Assembly (NCBI GenBank): GCA_003140855.1
Contig: PLLF01000093.1
Location: 1 to 64,000 of the forward strand
Direction: 5' to 3'
Length of the DNA stretch: 64,000 bases
From: Vulcanimicrobiota bacterium
GTDB lineage: Bacteria; Vulcanimicrobiota; Vulcanimicrobiia; Vulcanimicrobiales; Vulcanimicrobiaceae
Positions 9,021 to 43,515 of the stretch are shown here, piece after piece; positions within the stretch are counted from its first letter, which is position 1; every line of letters begins with the position of its first letter. The notes under the pieces are model-generated. The model searched no databases, had not been told where the DNA came from, and was given only the letters and a program-made list of their open reading frames with translations. A program made the translations under genes and the position numbers.

Positions 9021-10598
9021 ATGTCTCGCGCGGAAAACGGCAGCGGAATCCCGTTGAAGCCAGTCTACCACGCTGTTGAGGGGCCTGCGCATGAGCTCGG
9101 CGAGCCCGGTGAGTTTCCGTTCGCGCGCGGAGTGCGCAAAGATATGTATCGCGGGCGCCTGTGGACCATGCGCCAGTACGCGGGGTTCGGCAGCGCGGCG
9201 GAATCGAATGCGCGCTACCGCTATCTGCTCGCACACGGCACGACCGGGCTTTCCGTCGCGTTCGATCTTCCGACGCAACTCGGATACGACTCGGATGCTC
9301 CGCAAGCGCGCGGCGAAGTCGGCAAGGTGGGCGTCGCGATCGACAGCATCGCCGATATTGAAACGCTGCTCGACGCCATTCCGCTCGATCGCGTAACGAT
9401 CTCGATGACGATCAATGCGCCCGCCTCGATCATCTTAGCGATGCTGTTGGCAGTCGCGCGGCGGCGCGGCGTGCCGTTCGACAAACTCGGCGGCACCGTG
9501 CAAAACGACGTACTCAAAGAGTACGTGGCACGCGGTACGTATATTTATCCACCTAAGCATTCGATGCGGCTGGTGACCGACGTGATGGCCTACTGCGAAC
9601 AGCACGTCCCCGAATGGAATACGATCTCGGTATCCGGCTACCATATCCGCGAAGCCGGATCGACCGCGCTGGAAGAAATCGCGTTCACGCTCGCAAACGG
9701 CAAGGCATACTTGCAGGCGGCGCGCGTATCGGGACTGGACCTCGACAAGATCGCGCCGCGCATCTCGTTTTTCTGGAACGCGCACAACGACCTATTCGAA
9801 GAAGTCGCCAAGTTTCGCGCGGCCCGCTACCTGTGGGCGCATATCACCCGCGACGAATTCGACTGCAAGGACCCGCGTTCGCAGATGTTGCGCTTTCATA
9901 CGCAAACCGGCGGCTCGACGCTGACCGCGCAAGAGCCCGACAACAACGTCGTTCGTGTGACGCTGCAGGCGCTCGCCGCCGTTTTAGGCGGGACGCAGTC
10001 ACTGCACACCAACGGCAAAGACGAAGCGCTGGCACTGCCGACCGAAGAGTCCGCCAAAGTTGCCCTGCGCACGCAGCAAATCATCGCTTACGAAAGCGGC
10101 GTTCCCAACGTCGTCGATCCGCTGGCCGGCTCGTATTACGTCGAATCACTTACCAACGAACTGATCGAGCGCGCTGCCGCGCTCATCGCCGAAGTGGACG
10201 CGCTGGGCGGAAGCATTGAGGCCATCGAGAGCGGCTGGATGCAGGCGCGGATCGCCGACTCGGCATATCGCGCGCAGCAGGCCATTGAAAAAGACGAACA
10301 GATCGTCGTGGGCGTCAACAAATTCGGCGAAGACGCGGCGCAAACGGCGATGCCTTTGCAGCAGCTCGATCCGCACATCGAGCGCGGGCAAGCGCAGCGT
10401 CTGAAGGACCTACGTGAAAAGCGCGACGCCGCAGCGGTTGAAAAGCACTTGGATGCCGTGCGAAAAACGGCGCAGGGAACCGGCAACCTCATGCCGGCGT
10501 TCATCGAGGCGGTCGATGCGGGCGCGACGCTCGGCGAGATCTGCAACGTCTTACGCGACGTCTTCGGAGTGTACCGCGCGCGCGAAGTGGTCGCCTAG
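9021..10598 (+). CDS. Methylmalonyl-CoA mutase, catalytic (large) subunit without B12 domain
   Basis: 525 residues, the substrate-binding TIM barrel of B12-dependent acyl-CoA mutases: [58 protein letters not shown]. The Tyr in RQYAGF is the residue expected for methylmalonyl-CoA; isobutyryl-CoA mutases carry Phe there. No cobalamin-binding domain follows, so this is the two-subunit type and the DxHxxG small subunit must be encoded elsewhere. The stop overlaps the epimerase start by 1 bp. A weak TAGAAT -10 box at 9006-9011 sits 9 nt before the ATG, with no Shine-Dalgarno. Isobutyryl- or 2-hydroxyisobutyryl-CoA mutase large chain is the alternative. Confidence 0.9.
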
Positions 10599-11008
10599 TG
10601 GAGATCGACCACATCGCTATCGTCGTGAGCGATCTGCCCAAAGCGCTCGCGCTTTACACCAAAACATTAGGCTTCAAAGAAATCTATCGCGAGACGCTGG
10701 CGGTTCAAGGCGTCGAAGCCGTCGGCTTGCAGGCCGGCGCTTCGGTCATCGAGCTTTTGCGGCCGCTGAGCGCGGATTCGCCGATCGCGCGCTATCGCGG
10801 TTATGCGGAAACGAAGCTGCATCATACGGCCTATCGCGTCGCGGATCTACGCGCAGAGCTGGCTCGGCTGAAGGCTGCGGGCGTGCGCCTTATCGATGAA
10901 GAGCCGCGCCGCGGCGCGCACGGAAACCTGATCGCCTTCCTTCATCCAAAGAGCACGGCGGGCGTTCTTATCGAGCTGTGCGAATCTAGTAGGGAGGAGC
11001 ACCCTTAG
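10598..11008 (+). CDS. mce: Methylmalonyl-CoA epimerase
   Basis: 136 residues, VOC-superfamily paired betaalphabetabetabeta modules. It interconverts (S)- and (R)-methylmalonyl-CoA between carboxylase and mutase. Likely metal ligands visible are His5 (EIDHIAIVV), His75/76 (LHHTAYRV) and Glu126 (VLIELCE). The GTG start at 10598 overlaps the last base of the mutase stop codon. The 3' end overlaps the convergent FMN reductase by 23 bp. Confidence 0.93.
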   Translation: MEIDHIAIVVSDLPKALALYTKTLGFKEIYRETLAVQGVEAVGLQAGASVIELLRPLSADSPIARYRGYAETKLHHTAYRVADLRAELARLKAAGVRLIDEEPRRGAHGNLIAFLHPKSTAGVLIELCESSREEHP

Positions 11009-37589: not shown

Positions 37590-38807
37590 CTAAAGCTTCG
37601 CCGCTTCCGGAGTGTGAATATGCTCCGGGCGAAAGCCGACTCCTATTAAGCGCGCCGGGATGCGCCGCAACAACGGAAAGTGCTTGAACGCGCGCAGCAG
37701 CAACGGCCCTCTCCCGGTTTTTTTCGCCGCAGCGGGCTGCAAGAATTTCGAGATCACCGCCTTTTGTATGAACAACTGCAAGCCTTGGGTCATGACTGTC
37801 GGAAATGTGCGGCGCCGCTGCACGGCCGCCAAGTCCGGCGCGCGATTCGCAGCGAGATCCGGATACAGAATATTTGCGGCCGCGACCGCGTCCTGAATTG
37901 CAAGATTGATCCCGACGCCCCCAATCGGCGACATGGCGTGCGCCGCGTCGCCGATGAAGAGTAGCCCGTCTTCGTACCATTTTTCCAGGCGGTCGACCTG
38001 AACCAGCAGCAGCTTGACGTCGTCCCAGCTCCGCAGCGCGGCGACACGATCGCGCACGAACGGCGCCTGCTCGGCAATGCCGGCACGAAACTCTTCCAGG
38101 CCGCGCGCCTTGAGCGTCTTGAACGACCCCTTCGTGATGATATACGCGCACTGCCAGTACGTATCGCGCAAAAGCATGACGAAGATCTTTCCGTTCTTGA
38201 TGTACCCGAAGACTTGGCCGGGATCTTCCGGCTCGCGCGGCAAGCGCAGCCACAAGGCGTCCATCGGCGCGCCAAAATCCTTGACGGGCATCCGGGCGGC
38301 CTCGCGCAGCGTCGAGTTGCGGCCGTCGGCGCCGACCGTCAAGTCCGCGCGAATGTCGATCTCACCCTGCGGCGTTGATGCGCGCACGCCGGCGACTCGC
38401 CCGCCGTCTTTCAGCATGCTCGTCGCTTCGGTTTGCATAAGCAGATGAAACGCGGGATAACGCCGCGCGTGTTCCGCCAAGAAGTTCAGGAAATCCCACT
38501 GCGGCATGAACGCCAAGAATTTACAATGCGTCGGAACGTGCCGGAGGTCGACGAACGGATATTCGACATCGTCCACGACTCCCGAGAACTGCGTGATTTC
38601 GCTGTGCGGACGCGCCAGGAATGCCTCGAGCAGTCCCAGTTCCCACATGAGGTCGAGCGTCGACGGATGAATCGTGTCGCCGCGAAAATCCCGCAGAAAA
38701 TCCGCGTGCTTCTCAAGCACCGCGACTTCTACTCCAGCGCGGGCGAGCAAGAATCCCAGCATCATGCCGGCGGGCCCGCCGCCGGCGACCGCGACCTTAA
38801 CGTTCAA
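37590..38807 (-). CDS. FAD-dependent monooxygenase (PHBH/UbiH fold)
   Basis: 405 residues. FAD-binding GxGxxG near the start (VAGGGPAGMMLGFLLARAG), the DG motif TVGADGRNSTLR, and GDAAHAMSPIGGVGINLAIQD for the flavin ribityl/pyrophosphate. Such enzymes hydroxylate or epoxidise aromatic or polyketide-type compounds. Its substrate is unknown and no catabolic genes are near. It overlaps murI by 11 bp, so is transcribed with the cell-wall genes. Length (405) suits the aromatic-hydroxylase clan rather than the longer phenol hydroxylases. Confidence 0.88.
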   Translation of the reverse strand: MNVKVAVAGGGPAGMMLGFLLARAGVEVAVLEKHADFLRDFRGDTIHPSTLDLMWELGLLEAFLARPHSEITQFSGVVDDVEYPFVDLRHVPTHCKFLAFMPQWDFLNFLAEHARRYPAFHLLMQTEATSMLKDGGRVAGVRASTPQGEIDIRADLTVGADGRNSTLREAARMPVKDFGAPMDALWLRLPREPEDPGQVFGYIKNGKIFVMLLRDTYWQCAYIITKGSFKTLKARGLEEFRAGIAEQAPFVRDRVAALRSWDDVKLLLVQVDRLEKWYEDGLLFIGDAAHAMSPIGGVGINLAIQDAVAAANILYPDLAANRAPDLAAVQRRRTFPTVMTQGLQLFIQKAVISKFLQPAAAKKTGRGPLLLRAFKHFPLLRRIPARLIGVGFRPEHIHTPEAAKL

Positions 38808-39561
38808 AAGAGATCTCCGGCAATTCGCCCAGCGTCGCAGTTACGGCGCTGCGGAAACGATCCGGATCGCCGCTCGTGATGCAGACGATCGATCCGGTTC
38901 CGGGCCCGAAACCTTCGTTGGCGGCGATCGCCGCCGCGCATTCGGCTTGCTCGAGAGCGGGATCGATGCGTGCTATACCGTCGCCGAGCACCGCCGCGAA
39001 GTGCGCATCCAGCAGCGGATAGTGCGTGCACGCCAAAATGACTGCGTCGAGTTCGCGCGGCAACTGCGCGCACGCGGCCGCAACCGCGGCACGGGGCTCA
39101 GGGCCTTCCAGCTTTCCGGCCTCCACGAGCGGCACCAGCGCCGGAGCCGCGACTTCCGTGACACGGGCGCCAGGAACGCGCGCCGCGATCTTCTTCGTAT
39201 AAGCTCCAGTCGCCATAGTTGCCGAAGTCGCGATGACGCCTACACGCTCGTAACCTGCACTTTCAACGGCGATCGCTGCCGACTCGATCAGGTCCACGAT
39301 CGCAGCGCGCGATCGCGGCCAGCCTTGCTGCGAAGCGGTCGCGCACGACGTGTTGCATGCCATAACGATTGCATCCGCACCGCGTTCGTCCAAGAACGCG
39401 ACGTTCGCGCGCAGCAGCTGGACCAACTCATCCGTGCTGCGGTCGCCGTAAGGCACGTGCAATTGGTCTGCAAAAAACACGATGTCGTGCCGCGGTAACT
39501 TCTCGTGCAGCCGCCGCAGCACTGTCAGCCCGCCGAGCCCCGAATCGAATAAACCTAGAAT
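38797..39561 (-). CDS. murI: Glutamate racemase MurI, apparent ATT start
   Basis: 254 residues from ATT 39561. Makes D-glutamate for peptidoglycan. Both catalytic cysteines are present (ACNTS and ACTHYPLL), and so is the N-terminal FDSGLGGLTVLRRLHEKLP with the essential Asp. The first conventional start codon (GTG 39522) falls inside that motif and would delete the Asp. Upstream in frame, only CTA AGC ATT CTA GGT TTA TTC lie between a TAA (39568-39570) and the motif, so ATT is the best candidate. It begins 2 nt after the amiC stop, with GGAG 11 nt upstream: re-initiation after amiC is likely. Confidence 0.85.
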   Translation of the reverse strand: MLGLFDSGLGGLTVLRRLHEKLPRHDIVFFADQLHVPYGDRSTDELVQLLRANVAFLDERGADAIVMACNTSCATASQQGWPRSRAAIVDLIESAAIAVESAGYERVGVIATSATMATGAYTKKIAARVPGARVTEVAAPALVPLVEAGKLEGPEPRAAVAAACAQLPRELDAVILACTHYPLLDAHFAAVLGDGIARIDPALEQAECAAAIAANEGFGPGTGSIVCITSGDPDRFRSAVTATLGELPEISFER

Positions 39562-39563
39562 GC

Positions 39564-41072
39564 TTAGTTATTCTCCGTATAATCTACTATGCCGTCGGCG
39601 ATCGCTTGCGCCATCTTCTGCCGCCAGCTTGCCGACTGCAAGAGGGCGAGGTCGTCGGGGTTAGAAATGAAGGCCGTTTCGACCAGCGCAGCCGGCATGT
39701 TGGCATGGTTGACGACGTAGAGTTTGTCTTTGATGACGCCGTTATTCTTGAGCCCGAGTTCCGACGTTATGCGCCGGTTGACGGCTTGGGCCAGCGCGAG
39801 GTCGCTCGCCTTATAGTAAAACGTCGTCACGCCGTGCGGCCCCGAATTCACATAGCTGTTGACATGGATGCTAACCAGCAGCCGCGCGCCTCTTGAATTG
39901 GCGACGTCGTCGCGCGCCTGCAGCTCGTCGTGGGCAGAATCGTTGGGCGCAAAGACGTCGCGATCGTCATTACGCGTCATGATCACTTGCCAGCCGCGCG
40001 CGACCAAGATATCGCGAACGTGCCTAGCCATGTCGAGCGCCAAACCTTTCTCTTGCGTATCGCCGCGAACCGTGCCGGGATCGCTGCCGCCGTGACCTGG
40101 ATCGATAACGATCAATCTCGGGTTCGTGGGCACGTATTGCACGGAGGGGGAAGCCGCGGGCGTTGCAACCGCGGTTGCGTTGGAACCGAACGTGCCGAGC
40201 CCGCCGCGCGGAGCGTCCGCTAGAATCCGGGCCGAAGCGACAACGGTTATACCGTCGGCGCCGGGCGTTACGTCGACTTGGTTGGCGGCCGAAAGCGAGA
40301 GCGCCATGCGAACGGTGTCGCCGTTTTGCTGACGCACGCGTACGGATGAAACGATGTCCCCGGCATTTTGATCGATCGGCGCCGTTGTCAAACGCGCATT
40401 GTGAACGTCAATCCACCAGCGGTTATCCGGCGCGCGCAAACGGTGCCATTCGTACGATCCATCTCCAACGATGCCGATGCGAACGGTGACGCTGCCCGGT
40501 TGCGATTGCACGTCGACACCCGTAACTTGTGCCGGTTGCGGCGAGGGCTGCGGCGTCGCAAACGGCGGCGGCGTCGGCGGCGCCGAGATATCGGAGGTAG
40601 ATTCAGGCAACGGCACAGGCGTCTTCGCTGCCGGCGAAGCGGCCGGCAGCGAAGCCGCGGAGAGCGGCGGAAGCTTGAGCGCGCGCAAGACATCCTCTAT
40701 TGGAACGTAGGCATGCGCGTCGTGCATGAACGGCGCGAAAGAAGCCGGCCGCGAGACCGACCCTACCAAGTAATGCGCGTCGCCGATTGCGAAACTGATG
40801 ATGCTCGGTCCCGGAAACGTTATGAGGACGTATTGGTTATCGGGATCCCACGACAGCGACGCGCCGGCCGCCTTGATGAGTTCGTGGAAACCGGGATCGT
40901 CCGCCGACACCGCCGGTCCGCCGGTGTGCTGCAGCAACGTCGTAAAGACGATCCGCTTGCCGTTATAGATATAGGTTGTGTTCTCAGCAGCGTTCGAACG
41001 CGCCAGGCCGCAGAGCTGAAAGCTCAGTGCGAGTGCGAGAACGCTACCAATCCGAACGGCGTAACGGTTCAT
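39564..41072 (-). CDS. N-acetylmuramoyl-L-alanine amidase (AmiC-like, Amidase_3) with N-terminal AMIN-type domain
   Basis: 502 residues from ATG 41072. Signal peptide (VLALALSFQLCGLARSNAA), a copper-amine-oxidase-N/phosphodiester-like beta domain (residues 30-140), a Pro-rich linker (PESTSDISAPPTPPPFATPQ), an AMIN-like domain (VTVRIGIVGDGSYEWHRL) and a zinc amidase with IDPGHGGSDPG, EKGLALD, SIHVNS and VETAFISN (the two His and two Glu needed). It splits the peptide stem from MurNAc in the periplasm, for cell separation or turnover. GGAGG lies 14 nt upstream of 41072; the 16-residue longer form is less likely. It overlaps the GerMN gene by 29 bp. Confidence 0.92.
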   Translation of the reverse strand: MNRYAVRIGSVLALALSFQLCGLARSNAAENTTYIYNGKRIVFTTLLQHTGGPAVSADDPGFHELIKAAGASLSWDPDNQYVLITFPGPSIISFAIGDAHYLVGSVSRPASFAPFMHDAHAYVPIEDVLRALKLPPLSAASLPAASPAAKTPVPLPESTSDISAPPTPPPFATPQPSPQPAQVTGVDVQSQPGSVTVRIGIVGDGSYEWHRLRAPDNRWWIDVHNARLTTAPIDQNAGDIVSSVRVRQQNGDTVRMALSLSAANQVDVTPGADGITVVASARILADAPRGGLGTFGSNATAVATPAASPSVQYVPTNPRLIVIDPGHGGSDPGTVRGDTQEKGLALDMARHVRDILVARGWQVIMTRNDDRDVFAPNDSAHDELQARDDVANSRGARLLVSIHVNSYVNSGPHGVTTFYYKASDLALAQAVNRRITSELGLKNNGVIKDKLYVVNHANMPAALVETAFISNPDDLALLQSASWRQKMAQAIADGIVDYTENN

Positions 41073-41559
41073 CGATTTCGAAACTTCCTCCGGGCAGCGT
41101 GGCCACTTTTTTGCCCGCAATTCGCACGGCCACGCGATCGATTCCGGGCAGCGCGGTGAGTGTCCACACCAGCGACTTGAACTCGCCGCTCTCGTTCAAC
41201 GCGCCGGCGCGCCCGTCGTTGACTTCAGCGGAAAGATCGACGACTGCCGTCGTACCGTCAACGGCCGCGGAGAGCACGCGGGTTCCCGCCGGAAACCGAA
41301 TGGCCGAAAGATTGGCGGGCGGCCCTGCAACGGCCTGAGACGCCGCGTAAAGGACGAAGTACTGGAGCCGATCTGCGCCGCTCTCGCCCGGCTGCTGCGG
41401 GCGCACCGAGATGGTCCACGGTACTTCGGATTGGCCATCGACCTTCGTGTAATAGACGGTCACTTCGCCGGCCGAAGTACGATGCGACGTAAAGTACCAT
41501 GCGATCGCTGCCGCCGCAACCAGAAGCGCCAGCAGAAAAAAAACCCGCGAGTTTCTCAC
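41044..41559 (-). CDS. GerMN-domain membrane-anchored protein
   Basis: 171 residues: signal anchor (VFFLLALLVAAAAIAWYF) and a GerMN domain (VTVYYTKVDGQ, PAGTRVLSAAVDGTTAVVDL, LVWTLTALPGIDRVAVRIAG), the fold named after Bacillus GerM and found in many cell-envelope proteins next to murI or amidases. Likely helps cell-wall hydrolases; no evidence for sporulation here. Start GTG 41559 is the only one that keeps the anchor, yet it lies inside the stem of an intrinsic terminator (41536-41562), and codons 6-8 are GTT TTT TTT. Confidence 0.82.
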   Translation of the reverse strand: MRNSRVFFLLALLVAAAAIAWYFTSHRTSAGEVTVYYTKVDGQSEVPWTISVRPQQPGESGADRLQYFVLYAASQAVAGPPANLSAIRFPAGTRVLSAAVDGTTAVVDLSAEVNDGRAGALNESGEFKSLVWTLTALPGIDRVAVRIAGKKVATLPGGSFEIDEPLRRSDW

Positions 41560-41562
41560 GGG
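41536..41562 (-). terminator. Intrinsic terminator overlapping the GerMN start
   Basis: Minus strand: CCCGTGAG-AAA-CTCGCGGG followed by eight T. The 8-bp stem (one G-U wobble) has a 3-nt loop, a textbook rho-independent terminator. It lies 52 bp after the upstream phosphatase gene and contains the GerMN GTG (41557-41559). Confidence 0.75.
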
Positions 41563-41576
41563 CGAGATTCTTCGTC

Positions 41577-41600
41577 GAAAGGGGCCTTTCGGCCCCTTTC
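41577..41600. other. Stable hairpin between phosphatase and GerMN genes
   Basis: Perfect 10-bp stem GAAAGGGGCC/GGCCCCTTTC. On the minus-strand transcript the loop is GAAA, a GNRA tetraloop. No U-run follows directly on that strand (GTTCTTT follows on the plus strand), so it may stabilise the mRNA 3' end or compete with the next hairpin. Confidence 0.6.
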
Positions 41601-41613
41601 GTTCTTTACCGAG

Positions 41614-43515
41614 CTAAGAAATATGTATCGCCAGCACCACGGCAACGCTATTCCCGCTTCCGTTATTTTTGAATTCGATGGAACGCGCCAGGCTCCGGAT
41701 CAGATGCAGTCCGCGGCCGCTTAGCGACATCGGGTCGGGGCTCGGCCCGCCGTTGCTTGCAAACGGCTTGCCTGTATCGCGGACGCGCAAAACAGCTTGC
41801 CCGTCGCGGAATTCCATACTGATTTCAGCATCGCCGGGGGTATGCTGCGCAACATTGGAAAGCAACTCGCCCAAAATCAGCTCGACGGCGGCCAAATCCG
41901 ATCCCGGCTTCGCGCGGGTAGCCAGATTCCACAACACCGCGCGGCGTACGCGATAGGCGGCGCCGCGTTCGCGCACGTTCACCTTCCACGTCTGTTCTTG
42001 CGGCGAACCGTTCATGCCGAGATTCGTGATGCCCACGAAAAGAACCGCCGAATCATCGGCGGGCTCCGCGTTAGCAAGGATCCGGTCCTTTATGTGCTCC
42101 GCAATATTTTCTGAAGGCATACTGCCGTATTCGCTCTTGACGGTCTCGATCAAATTCTCCATGCCTTTGAGATAATCGCGTTCGATTTCGATCAAGCCGT
42201 CGGTGAAACCGACTATGCCTTCGCCGATCCGCAAGTCTCTTTCAAACGTTCGAAAACTCGCGTGCGCGTCGACGCCCAGAATGAGTCCCTCTCCCGTCAG
42301 CTGTTCGACTTGCGTGCCGGAATGGACGATCAGCGGCAAGGGGTGGCCTGCAACCGCGTAGCGAGTCTTGCCGTTGCGCATGTCGATCGTCGCGAAGAAC
42401 GCCGTGACGATAACGTCTGCTTCGTCCGCGCAGAGTGCGCGGTTCGCGCGATCCAGAACGGTGGCCGGTTCGCTATGCACTCTGGCAGCGCTGCGGATAG
42501 CCTGCCGCACGGATCCCATGATCGCCGCGGCCCGCAATCCATGGCCGGCGACGTCGCCGACGCTGATCCCAACCAGCCCTTCGTCCAACTTGAAGACGTC
42601 GTACCAATCGCCGCCGATCTCGGCGGCGTGCGCCGCAGCCGCATAAGCCGTGTCGATGCGCAAACCCGGGACGCGCGGCATCTCTTGCGGCAGCAGCGCG
42701 CGCTGCAGCGTCGAGGCGATGTAGTGTTCGCGCCGGTAGGCTGAAAGCGTATCGTGGATGCGCTGAGCCATTTCGTGATAGATACGATCGAGATCGGCGA
42801 TCTCGTCGTCGCCATGCACGGGCGCAGTGGTTTGGCCGGAGCCCAAACGGTCCGCGTTCTCGGCGAGCAGCCGCAAACGCTTTGCAATATTGATGCCAAA
42901 ACGGCCGGTCGTGAATAACGTCAGAATGATTCCGGCGAAAGTCAGAATGAGCAGTATGAAACCATACGTCCGGATTTGATCGCGCAGCGCGCGAAAGCTC
43001 GAACTCGTCAGCTGACGCTCAGCTCGATCGAAACTCGCTTTCGCAAGTTGAAAGTTTGCGGTGAACGCACGCGTGGCCGGCGATGAAACCAACGCCCGGG
43101 CGCGAGCCGCATGCCCCGATTGCAGCTCGGAGAGATAGGTGTCCAGCACGCCAAAGACACGATCGACAGCCCGCATGTAGGCGGCGGCACGGACTCTTTG
43201 TGCTGGATCCTGGACCATGCGAACGAGTTCGTGCGCCTGCGCGCGCGCGCCAGCTGCTCTCACACGGTACGTTTTCAATAGAGCTTGGCTGGGGCGGGCG
43301 GTATAATCCGCGACCGCTCGATTTGCGTCTCCGAGCGTCTTGAGAATCGTGTCAGACTGATCGAGCATGCGCGAGGCCTGCTGCGTCCAAATCGTCATTT
43401 CGGCGGTGCGATCGACGAGCATCGCAACCACTGCGAGAAAGACCAGCAAAAACGCCAGCGGGACGATGCTTAAAAGAATCGCCTGCGATTGGATCTTCGA
43501 GCGTACGAGCCGCAA
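41614..43515 (-). CDS. Membrane sensor SpoIIE/RsbU-type PP2C phosphatase with C-terminal anti-sigma kinase-like domain
   Basis: 633 residues. TM1 (ILLSIVPLAFLLVFLAVVAM), a helical CHASE3-like periplasmic region (40-185), TM2 (FILLILTFAGIILTLFT), HAMP (IAKRLRLLAENADRLGSGQT), coil, then a PP2C/SpoIIE domain with the metal residues AEIGGDWYDVF, VGDVAGHG, FTDGLIE and DDSAVLFVG, and an HATPase_c_2 domain (LILGELLSNVAQHTPGDAEI, SGRGLHLIRSL). It would dephosphorylate an anti-anti-sigma factor and may also act as an anti-sigma kinase, coupling an envelope signal to partner switching. No STAS partner is nearby. Confidence 0.93.
   Translation of the reverse strand: MRLVRSKIQSQAILLSIVPLAFLLVFLAVVAMLVDRTAEMTIWTQQASRMLDQSDTILKTLGDANRAVADYTARPSQALLKTYRVRAAGARAQAHELVRMVQDPAQRVRAAAYMRAVDRVFGVLDTYLSELQSGHAARARALVSSPATRAFTANFQLAKASFDRAERQLTSSSFRALRDQIRTYGFILLILTFAGIILTLFTTGRFGINIAKRLRLLAENADRLGSGQTTAPVHGDDEIADLDRIYHEMAQRIHDTLSAYRREHYIASTLQRALLPQEMPRVPGLRIDTAYAAAAHAAEIGGDWYDVFKLDEGLVGISVGDVAGHGLRAAAIMGSVRQAIRSAARVHSEPATVLDRANRALCADEADVIVTAFFATIDMRNGKTRYAVAGHPLPLIVHSGTQVEQLTGEGLILGVDAHASFRTFERDLRIGEGIVGFTDGLIEIERDYLKGMENLIETVKSEYGSMPSENIAEHIKDRILANAEPADDSAVLFVGITNLGMNGSPQEQTWKVNVRERGAAYRVRRAVLWNLATRAKPGSDLAAVELILGELLSNVAQHTPGDAEISMEFRDGQAVLRVRDTGKPFASNGGPSPDPMSLSGRGLHLIRSLARSIEFKNNGSGNSVAVVLAIHIS

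Follow-up and report, generated by a model that had tools for sequence, protein, structure and literature searches.

We found that the GTG start codon of gerMN, which precedes amiC and murI in the 64,000-nucleotide stretch of DNA analyzed here (the window), is buried in the stem of a GC-rich RNA hairpin (H2) directly followed by a run of eight T residues (T8; U8 in the transcript). The site is real and conserved, and it probably serves as a working terminator. Our favored reading, which we hold at somewhat better than even confidence, is that H2 and U8 constitute a working intrinsic terminator for transcripts arriving from upstream, built into the first eight codons of gerMN. In all likelihood, the arrangement departs only modestly from ordinary transcription termination.

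Table 1. Features at and around the gerMN start in the window.
Feature	Coordinates	Strand	Remarks
SpoIIE-type phosphatase gene	41614..43515	-	HAMP and HATPase domains; stop TAG 41616-41614, 51 nt before H2
CGGT microhomology	41608..41611	-	Junction of the peptidase loss in the window lineage, by comparison with G003
Hairpin H1	41576..41601	-	11 bp, GAAA (GNRA) loop; no sense-side U-tract
Hairpin H2 (putative terminator stem)	41544..41562	-	AAA loop; 8-bp stem, or 9 bp counting an outer G-U
GTG start codon of GerMN	41557..41559	-	First in-frame start; N-terminus aligned family-wide
U-tract, exactly T8	41536..41543	-	Codons 6-8 of gerMN (GTT TTT TTT)
gerMN	41044..41559	-	Membrane-anchored Germane (GerM/GerN-type) domain protein, 171 aa; Pfam PF10646
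amiC	39564..41120	-	AMIN and N-acetylmuramoyl-L-alanine amidase; start ATG 41072 or TTG 41120
murI	38797..39522	-	Glutamate racemase (Asp/Glu racemase family); Pfam PF01177

The Germane domain of GerMN was recognized with an E-value of 2.9e-14 (54.1 bits vs a cut-off of 23), and the gene order gerMN-amiC-murI is conserved in all 12 relatives with a mapped neighborhood. The 3' end of gerMN (41044-41120) shares sequence with the amiC reading frame. In the congeners examined, the GTG is the earliest possible in-frame start. Family-wide, the N-terminus aligns as M-R/K-x-S/T-R and then hydrophobic residues. No alternative start lies in frame upstream, and the next in-frame GTG, codon 33, would delete the membrane anchor. 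The first-pass annotation had named a GerMN start elsewhere as fatal to its proposal; the alignment of homologues supports the GTG at 41559.

Past the phosphatase stop codon, the minus strand reads CTCGGTAAAGAA-(CGAAAGGGGCC GAAA GGCCCCTTTCG)-ACGAAGAATCTCG-(CCC GTGAG AAA CTCGCGGG)-TTTTTTTT-CTG. On direct reading, the first hairpin (H1) is CGAAAGGGGCC-GAAA-GGCCCCTTTCG, so the GNRA-capped hairpin annotated earlier is present but comprises 11 bp instead of 10. The second, H2, is CCCGTGAG-AAA-CTCGCGGG, with eight base pairs including one G-U (six G-C), and its 5' arm, CCCGUGAG, contains the GerMN start codon. H2 alone folds at -14.0 kcal/mol. The T8 run begins without a gap after the H2 stem and consists of codon 6 positions 2-3 and codons 7 and 8. 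The earlier description of a perfect terminator (8-bp stem, T8) with the GTG in its stem and a U-run in codons 6-8 was thus borne out. The 93-nt stretch of this region folds at -45.1 kcal/mol, compared with -27.6 (sd 3.5) for shuffled sequences (z = -4.97; 0/200 as good). The GC-rich stem directly abutting a U-tract is the form of an intrinsic (Rho-independent) terminator, and, judged from the sequence, transcripts from upstream would have to pass it to reach gerMN-amiC-murI, as had been proposed. The antisense side of H2 lacks a T-run, and a bidirectional terminator was rejected; H1 has an antisense T-rich tail in the window genome and in G003, not in G006. Programmed slippage on U8 is not supported: neither the +1 nor the -1 frame has stop codons at conserved positions, and one T gained or lost would merely truncate GerMN.

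Sites of this kind are rare. We scanned the 64-kb window and a 972-kb contig (C6) of the congener G006 for stems of at least 8 bp with at least five G-C pairs, followed by at least seven T. The gerMN site was the sole match in the window, and the reversed control gave none. The G006 contig contained seven matches, against one in the reversed control and 0, 0, and 0 in three Markov-resampled sequences. Among these seven, only the gerMN site overlaps the start of an open reading frame of at least 100 aa; for the other six, no ATG, GTG, or TTG opening such a frame was found within -40 to +60 of the hairpin. The other strong terminator-like sites in the genus are all intergenic. A chance origin of the hairpin and T8 at gerMN is unlikely. 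A further hairpin with a T-rich tail, AAGGGCCGC-TTCGT-GCGGTCCTT TATCTTA, was observed in locus L073 (G006:C6:302232-302255, minus strand), where it covers what looks like the GTG start of an 881-aa protein predicted to be secreted or membrane-bound.

For the comparison within the genus (g1), we used seven genomes: G000 (window), G003, G006, G001, G004, G005, and G002; the named close relatives are Candidatus Eremiobacterota MAGs. H1, H2, and exactly T8 are kept in all of them except G002, down to 77% GerMN identity with the window protein. Pairing in H1 is kept in 65/66 cells, and three pairs have changed on both sides, including compensatory A-U to G-C exchanges at two pairs between sublineages; an outer pair also varies. 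The H1 core is present in one copy per genome in five congeners, the window genome among them, and G003 has a GGAA loop variant; a dispersed repeat was dismissed because the core is single-copy. In H2, the pair -3:+16 changed from C-G to U-A in G005 and in G086, a genome outside the genus, in G005 together with codon 6 (GTT to ATT). The pair +5:+9 changed from G-C to A-U in G079. The check on stem and T-run in relatives called for by the first-pass annotation therefore gave pairing-preserving changes and retention in six of the seven congeners, with T8 absent outside the genus. The scan counts (7 vs 1 and 0), this retention, and the compensatory changes mark H2-T8, a putative terminator, as non-random and kept by selection by sequence criteria.

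Codon usage bears on the same question. All nine representatives have CGG as codon 5, although CGG makes up 18% of Arg codons, whereas the three other invariant Arg columns that lie clear of both the stem and the amiC overlap vary in codon choice. The TTT TTT of codons 7 and 8 is never swapped for TTC in the six T8 genomes, although TTC accounts for 67% of Phe codons. A single codon is used throughout in only 5 of 52 degenerate invariant gerMN columns; three of these five sit in the 3' stretch shared with the amiC frame. Taken alone, synonymous conservation of the first codons is weak (5/8 vs 34/103 columns). Since both T8 and the 3' arm of the stem belong to the coding sequence, with amino acids that are conserved in the genus, codon choice for M-R-N-S-R-V-F-F beside a CCC might by coincidence mimic a terminator of no effect, kept by protein conservation. 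We consider this improbable, because the non-coding position -3 covaries with codon 6, CGG is invariant, T8 and H1 are retained together in six genomes, and such sites are rare.

The exception within the genus, G002, counts against a fixed terminator: it lacks H1 and its T8 is broken, yet it keeps CCCGTGA-GATCT-TCACGGG. Its Shine-Dalgarno sequence (AAGGAG) is better as well, and the stop codon of the preceding gene starts only 26 nt ahead of the GTG. The nearest other genera are also without T8, G079 having a partial T-rich tail, TCTCTTTTT, after the stem. Nevertheless, the start codon pairs with codons 4-5 in G081, G079, G086, G082-G084, and G010, in differing upstream contexts. Across 12 relatives, 91.7% of H2 cells are paired, compared with 21-47% for slid controls. 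The covariation score of these 12 sequences is 0.259 against 0.206 ± 0.018 in shuffles (1/500 as high), and at two pairs both sides have changed; relatedness can inflate these figures, and two of the five measures fall within the shuffle range. On the GerMN tree, the stem-bearing genomes require two state changes, and a single origin is also compatible. Judging from these sequences, the start-codon stem seems to predate the terminator; a gain of the U-tract in genus g1, or its loss in G002, is probable. Because the stem is conserved in related genera lacking the U-tract, termination cannot be its sole role.

Such a stem could instead act as a brake on gerMN translation that upstream ribosomes, temperature, or a bound factor would release, with U8 of genus g1 a later addition or a by-product of Phe codons. 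The stems without T8 in G002 and the other genera, beside differing upstream genes, speak for this explanation, as does the covariation score. However, related sequences can beat shuffles without any structure, and two of the five measures are not clearly above them; moreover, in 19/473 well-scored G006 genes (4%), the start codon is likewise fully paired at -14 kcal/mol or below, so concealment of a start is by itself no rarity in this GC-rich genome. A brake alone would leave H1 and the exact T8 unexplained; we regard it as unlikely. Also given a low probability is a combined scenario in which the start-codon hairpin is kept for its own sake across a clade of Eremiobacterota and throttles translation of the cell-wall operon, while in one genus a U8 of Phe codons made it a terminator. 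One hairpin would then set both mRNA supply and translation, possibly via a factor or a leaderless start inside the stem.

The inverted repeat CCCGTGA-N5-TCACGGG might also be a DNA operator for a dimeric regulator, given its constant length and the near-perfect palindromes in G002, G006, and G001. In several genomes, however, only RNA-type G-U pairs remain (U-G in 5/12 at the start-codon U and in 3/12 at -2), and these break a palindrome in DNA; T8 would also be unexplained. We consider an operator very improbable. Two observations were made separately on the gerMN upstream regions of relatives. In genus g33, four loci (L107, L110, L114, and L117) carry, at a distance of about 16-27 nt from gerMN on its upstream side, the palindrome CCTTCGCGAAGG or a close variant; it adjoins an apparently divergent gene and is possibly a regulator site. 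The upstream regions of gerMN in G010 and G032 (L008 and L010, respectively) are identical though the two genomes are placed in different families of the class, which suggests that one MAG is contaminated or that a recent transfer occurred.

The gene preceding the hairpins differs between the window genome and its congeners. The target of the terminator had been proposed to be a stress-type phosphatase transcript, a view that is not supported, since in the six other congeners a gene for a secreted sedolisin-like peptidase of about 450 aa sits between the phosphatase gene and gerMN, immediately upstream of the latter. A Pfam search of this peptidase returned no family; a comparison with PDB sequences matched kumamolisin/sedolisin (E 8.8e-17). 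The gene of about 1.4 kb is missing in the window genome, which retains only a 56%-identical paralogue on another contig, and CGGT is common to both deletion ends in G003 (L046, about 9527-10900). Therefore, the adjacency of phosphatase and gerMN is secondary and recent, the hairpins having stayed with gerMN, and we rejected the phosphatase as a specific partner of the terminator, this adjacency being peculiar to the window genome among the congeners. There is a slight chance that the absence of the peptidase gene reflects an assembly error in the window MAG; the conclusion is unaffected either way.

Under the preferred reading of a fixed terminator, ancestral transcripts would arrive from the peptidase gene and, in the window genome, from the SpoIIE-type phosphatase gene. 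RNA polymerase would make H1 and then H2, which would fold over the GUG; upon synthesis of U8, most transcripts would stop inside codons 6-8 of gerMN. Any read-through mRNA would carry its GUG within the -14 kcal/mol hairpin and would be poorly translated. The predicted outcome is a fixed, low, and insulated supply of gerMN-amiC-murI mRNA without a ligand switch. In E. coli, terminators are efficient even when placed in the first 100 bp of a coding region; their efficiency is maximal, with ribosome shielding gone, at stop-to-hairpin distances above about 27 nt (PMC4824070). From the upstream stop codon to H2, the six T8 genomes have about 44-53 nt, compared with about 19 nt in G002, the genome lacking T8. 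H1 may be a structured spacer: together with its flanks, it would place H2 beyond the reach of the last ribosome and leave the terminator unshielded.

MurI is often essential, and strong termination would therefore need a second promoter or substantial read-through. No second promoter was identified for gerMN-amiC-murI; the other transcription of the operon could come from read-through, from a promoter further downstream, or from a leaderless start in the spacer. The last option leads to another explanation, in which gerMN has its own promoter between H1 and H2, giving a (near-)leaderless transcript without the CCC of the 5' arm, and the terminator halts upstream transcripts alone, as an insulator chosen by the transcription start site. 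A transcript starting at the GTG retains just five inner stem pairs, and that of G000 prefers another fold, so that, in these models, a leaderless start would weaken the terminator for that transcript alone. Shine-Dalgarno use is weak in the genus (26% of genes vs 15% at a control position), and relatives in g33 as well as G015 and G076 have gerMN some 45-80 nt from an apparently divergent gene, where a near-start promoter is likely. Against these points, the spacer shows no recognizable promoter, and we give this explanation a low probability.

The first-pass annotation also read the site as attenuation, which, as a regulated switch, found no support. Within the genus, every fold that opens H2 is worse by at least 13 kcal/mol: the penalty for freeing its 5' arm is 13-16 kcal/mol for the six T8 genomes and 19 for G002. 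A switch between H1 and H2 was rejected, as H1 does not compete with H2 pairing. An Rfam search of the leader gave no family (best match 15.5 bits vs a gathering threshold of 229), which disposed of a known riboswitch or RNA family there. A conditional switch at the gerMN start is thus not supported by these fold models.

Several reported systems resemble parts of this arrangement. In the tR2 system, a hairpin and U-tract likewise stand at the start of a gene, with an efficiency that varies with the distance from the upstream stop codon (PMC4824070); it is engineered in E. coli, whereas the gerMN site is natural and has the start codon itself inside the stem. In the pT181 repC attenuator, one hairpin is the terminator and also hides the translation-initiation signals of the downstream gene (PMC5435934), and the gerMN hairpin similarly contains such a signal, the GTG in its 5' arm. 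The pT181 hairpin, however, hides a ribosome-binding site in its 3' half, upstream of the coding sequence, whereas the U-tract of gerMN lies in codons. Furthermore, pT181 has an antiterminator and an antisense RNA; neither was found at gerMN, where the antisense side was covered by a simple promoter scan. The RNA switch of M. tuberculosis rpfB, restricted to a subset of species, likewise puts a terminator ahead of a cell-wall gene whose operon includes essential genes (PMC6009663). Unlike gerMN, it has a long leader that takes two conformations, and the start codon follows the terminator. E. coli has transcript 3' ends at and inside the starts of open reading frames, e.g., mdtJI with a 3' end 6 nt into the frame (PMC7815308). 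Both mdtJI and gerMN would end transcripts at or just inside the coding sequence; mdtJI depends on Rho and a uORF, whereas the gerMN site is of the intrinsic type. In the open-access literature, we found partial parallels only and no natural case with a start codon in the 5' arm of an intrinsic terminator and a coding U-tract.

The gerMN site presents a natural, comparatively supported case in which a terminator stem is shared with the start codon of the next gene and the U-tract with its hydrophobic codons. If the site terminates, others like it would mislead gene finders and operon predictors, and the codons of signal anchors would be a ready source of U-tracts for the evolution of terminators. 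For the uncultured soil bacteria that carry it (Eremiobacterota), low and insulated expression of gerMN-amiC-murI is predicted.
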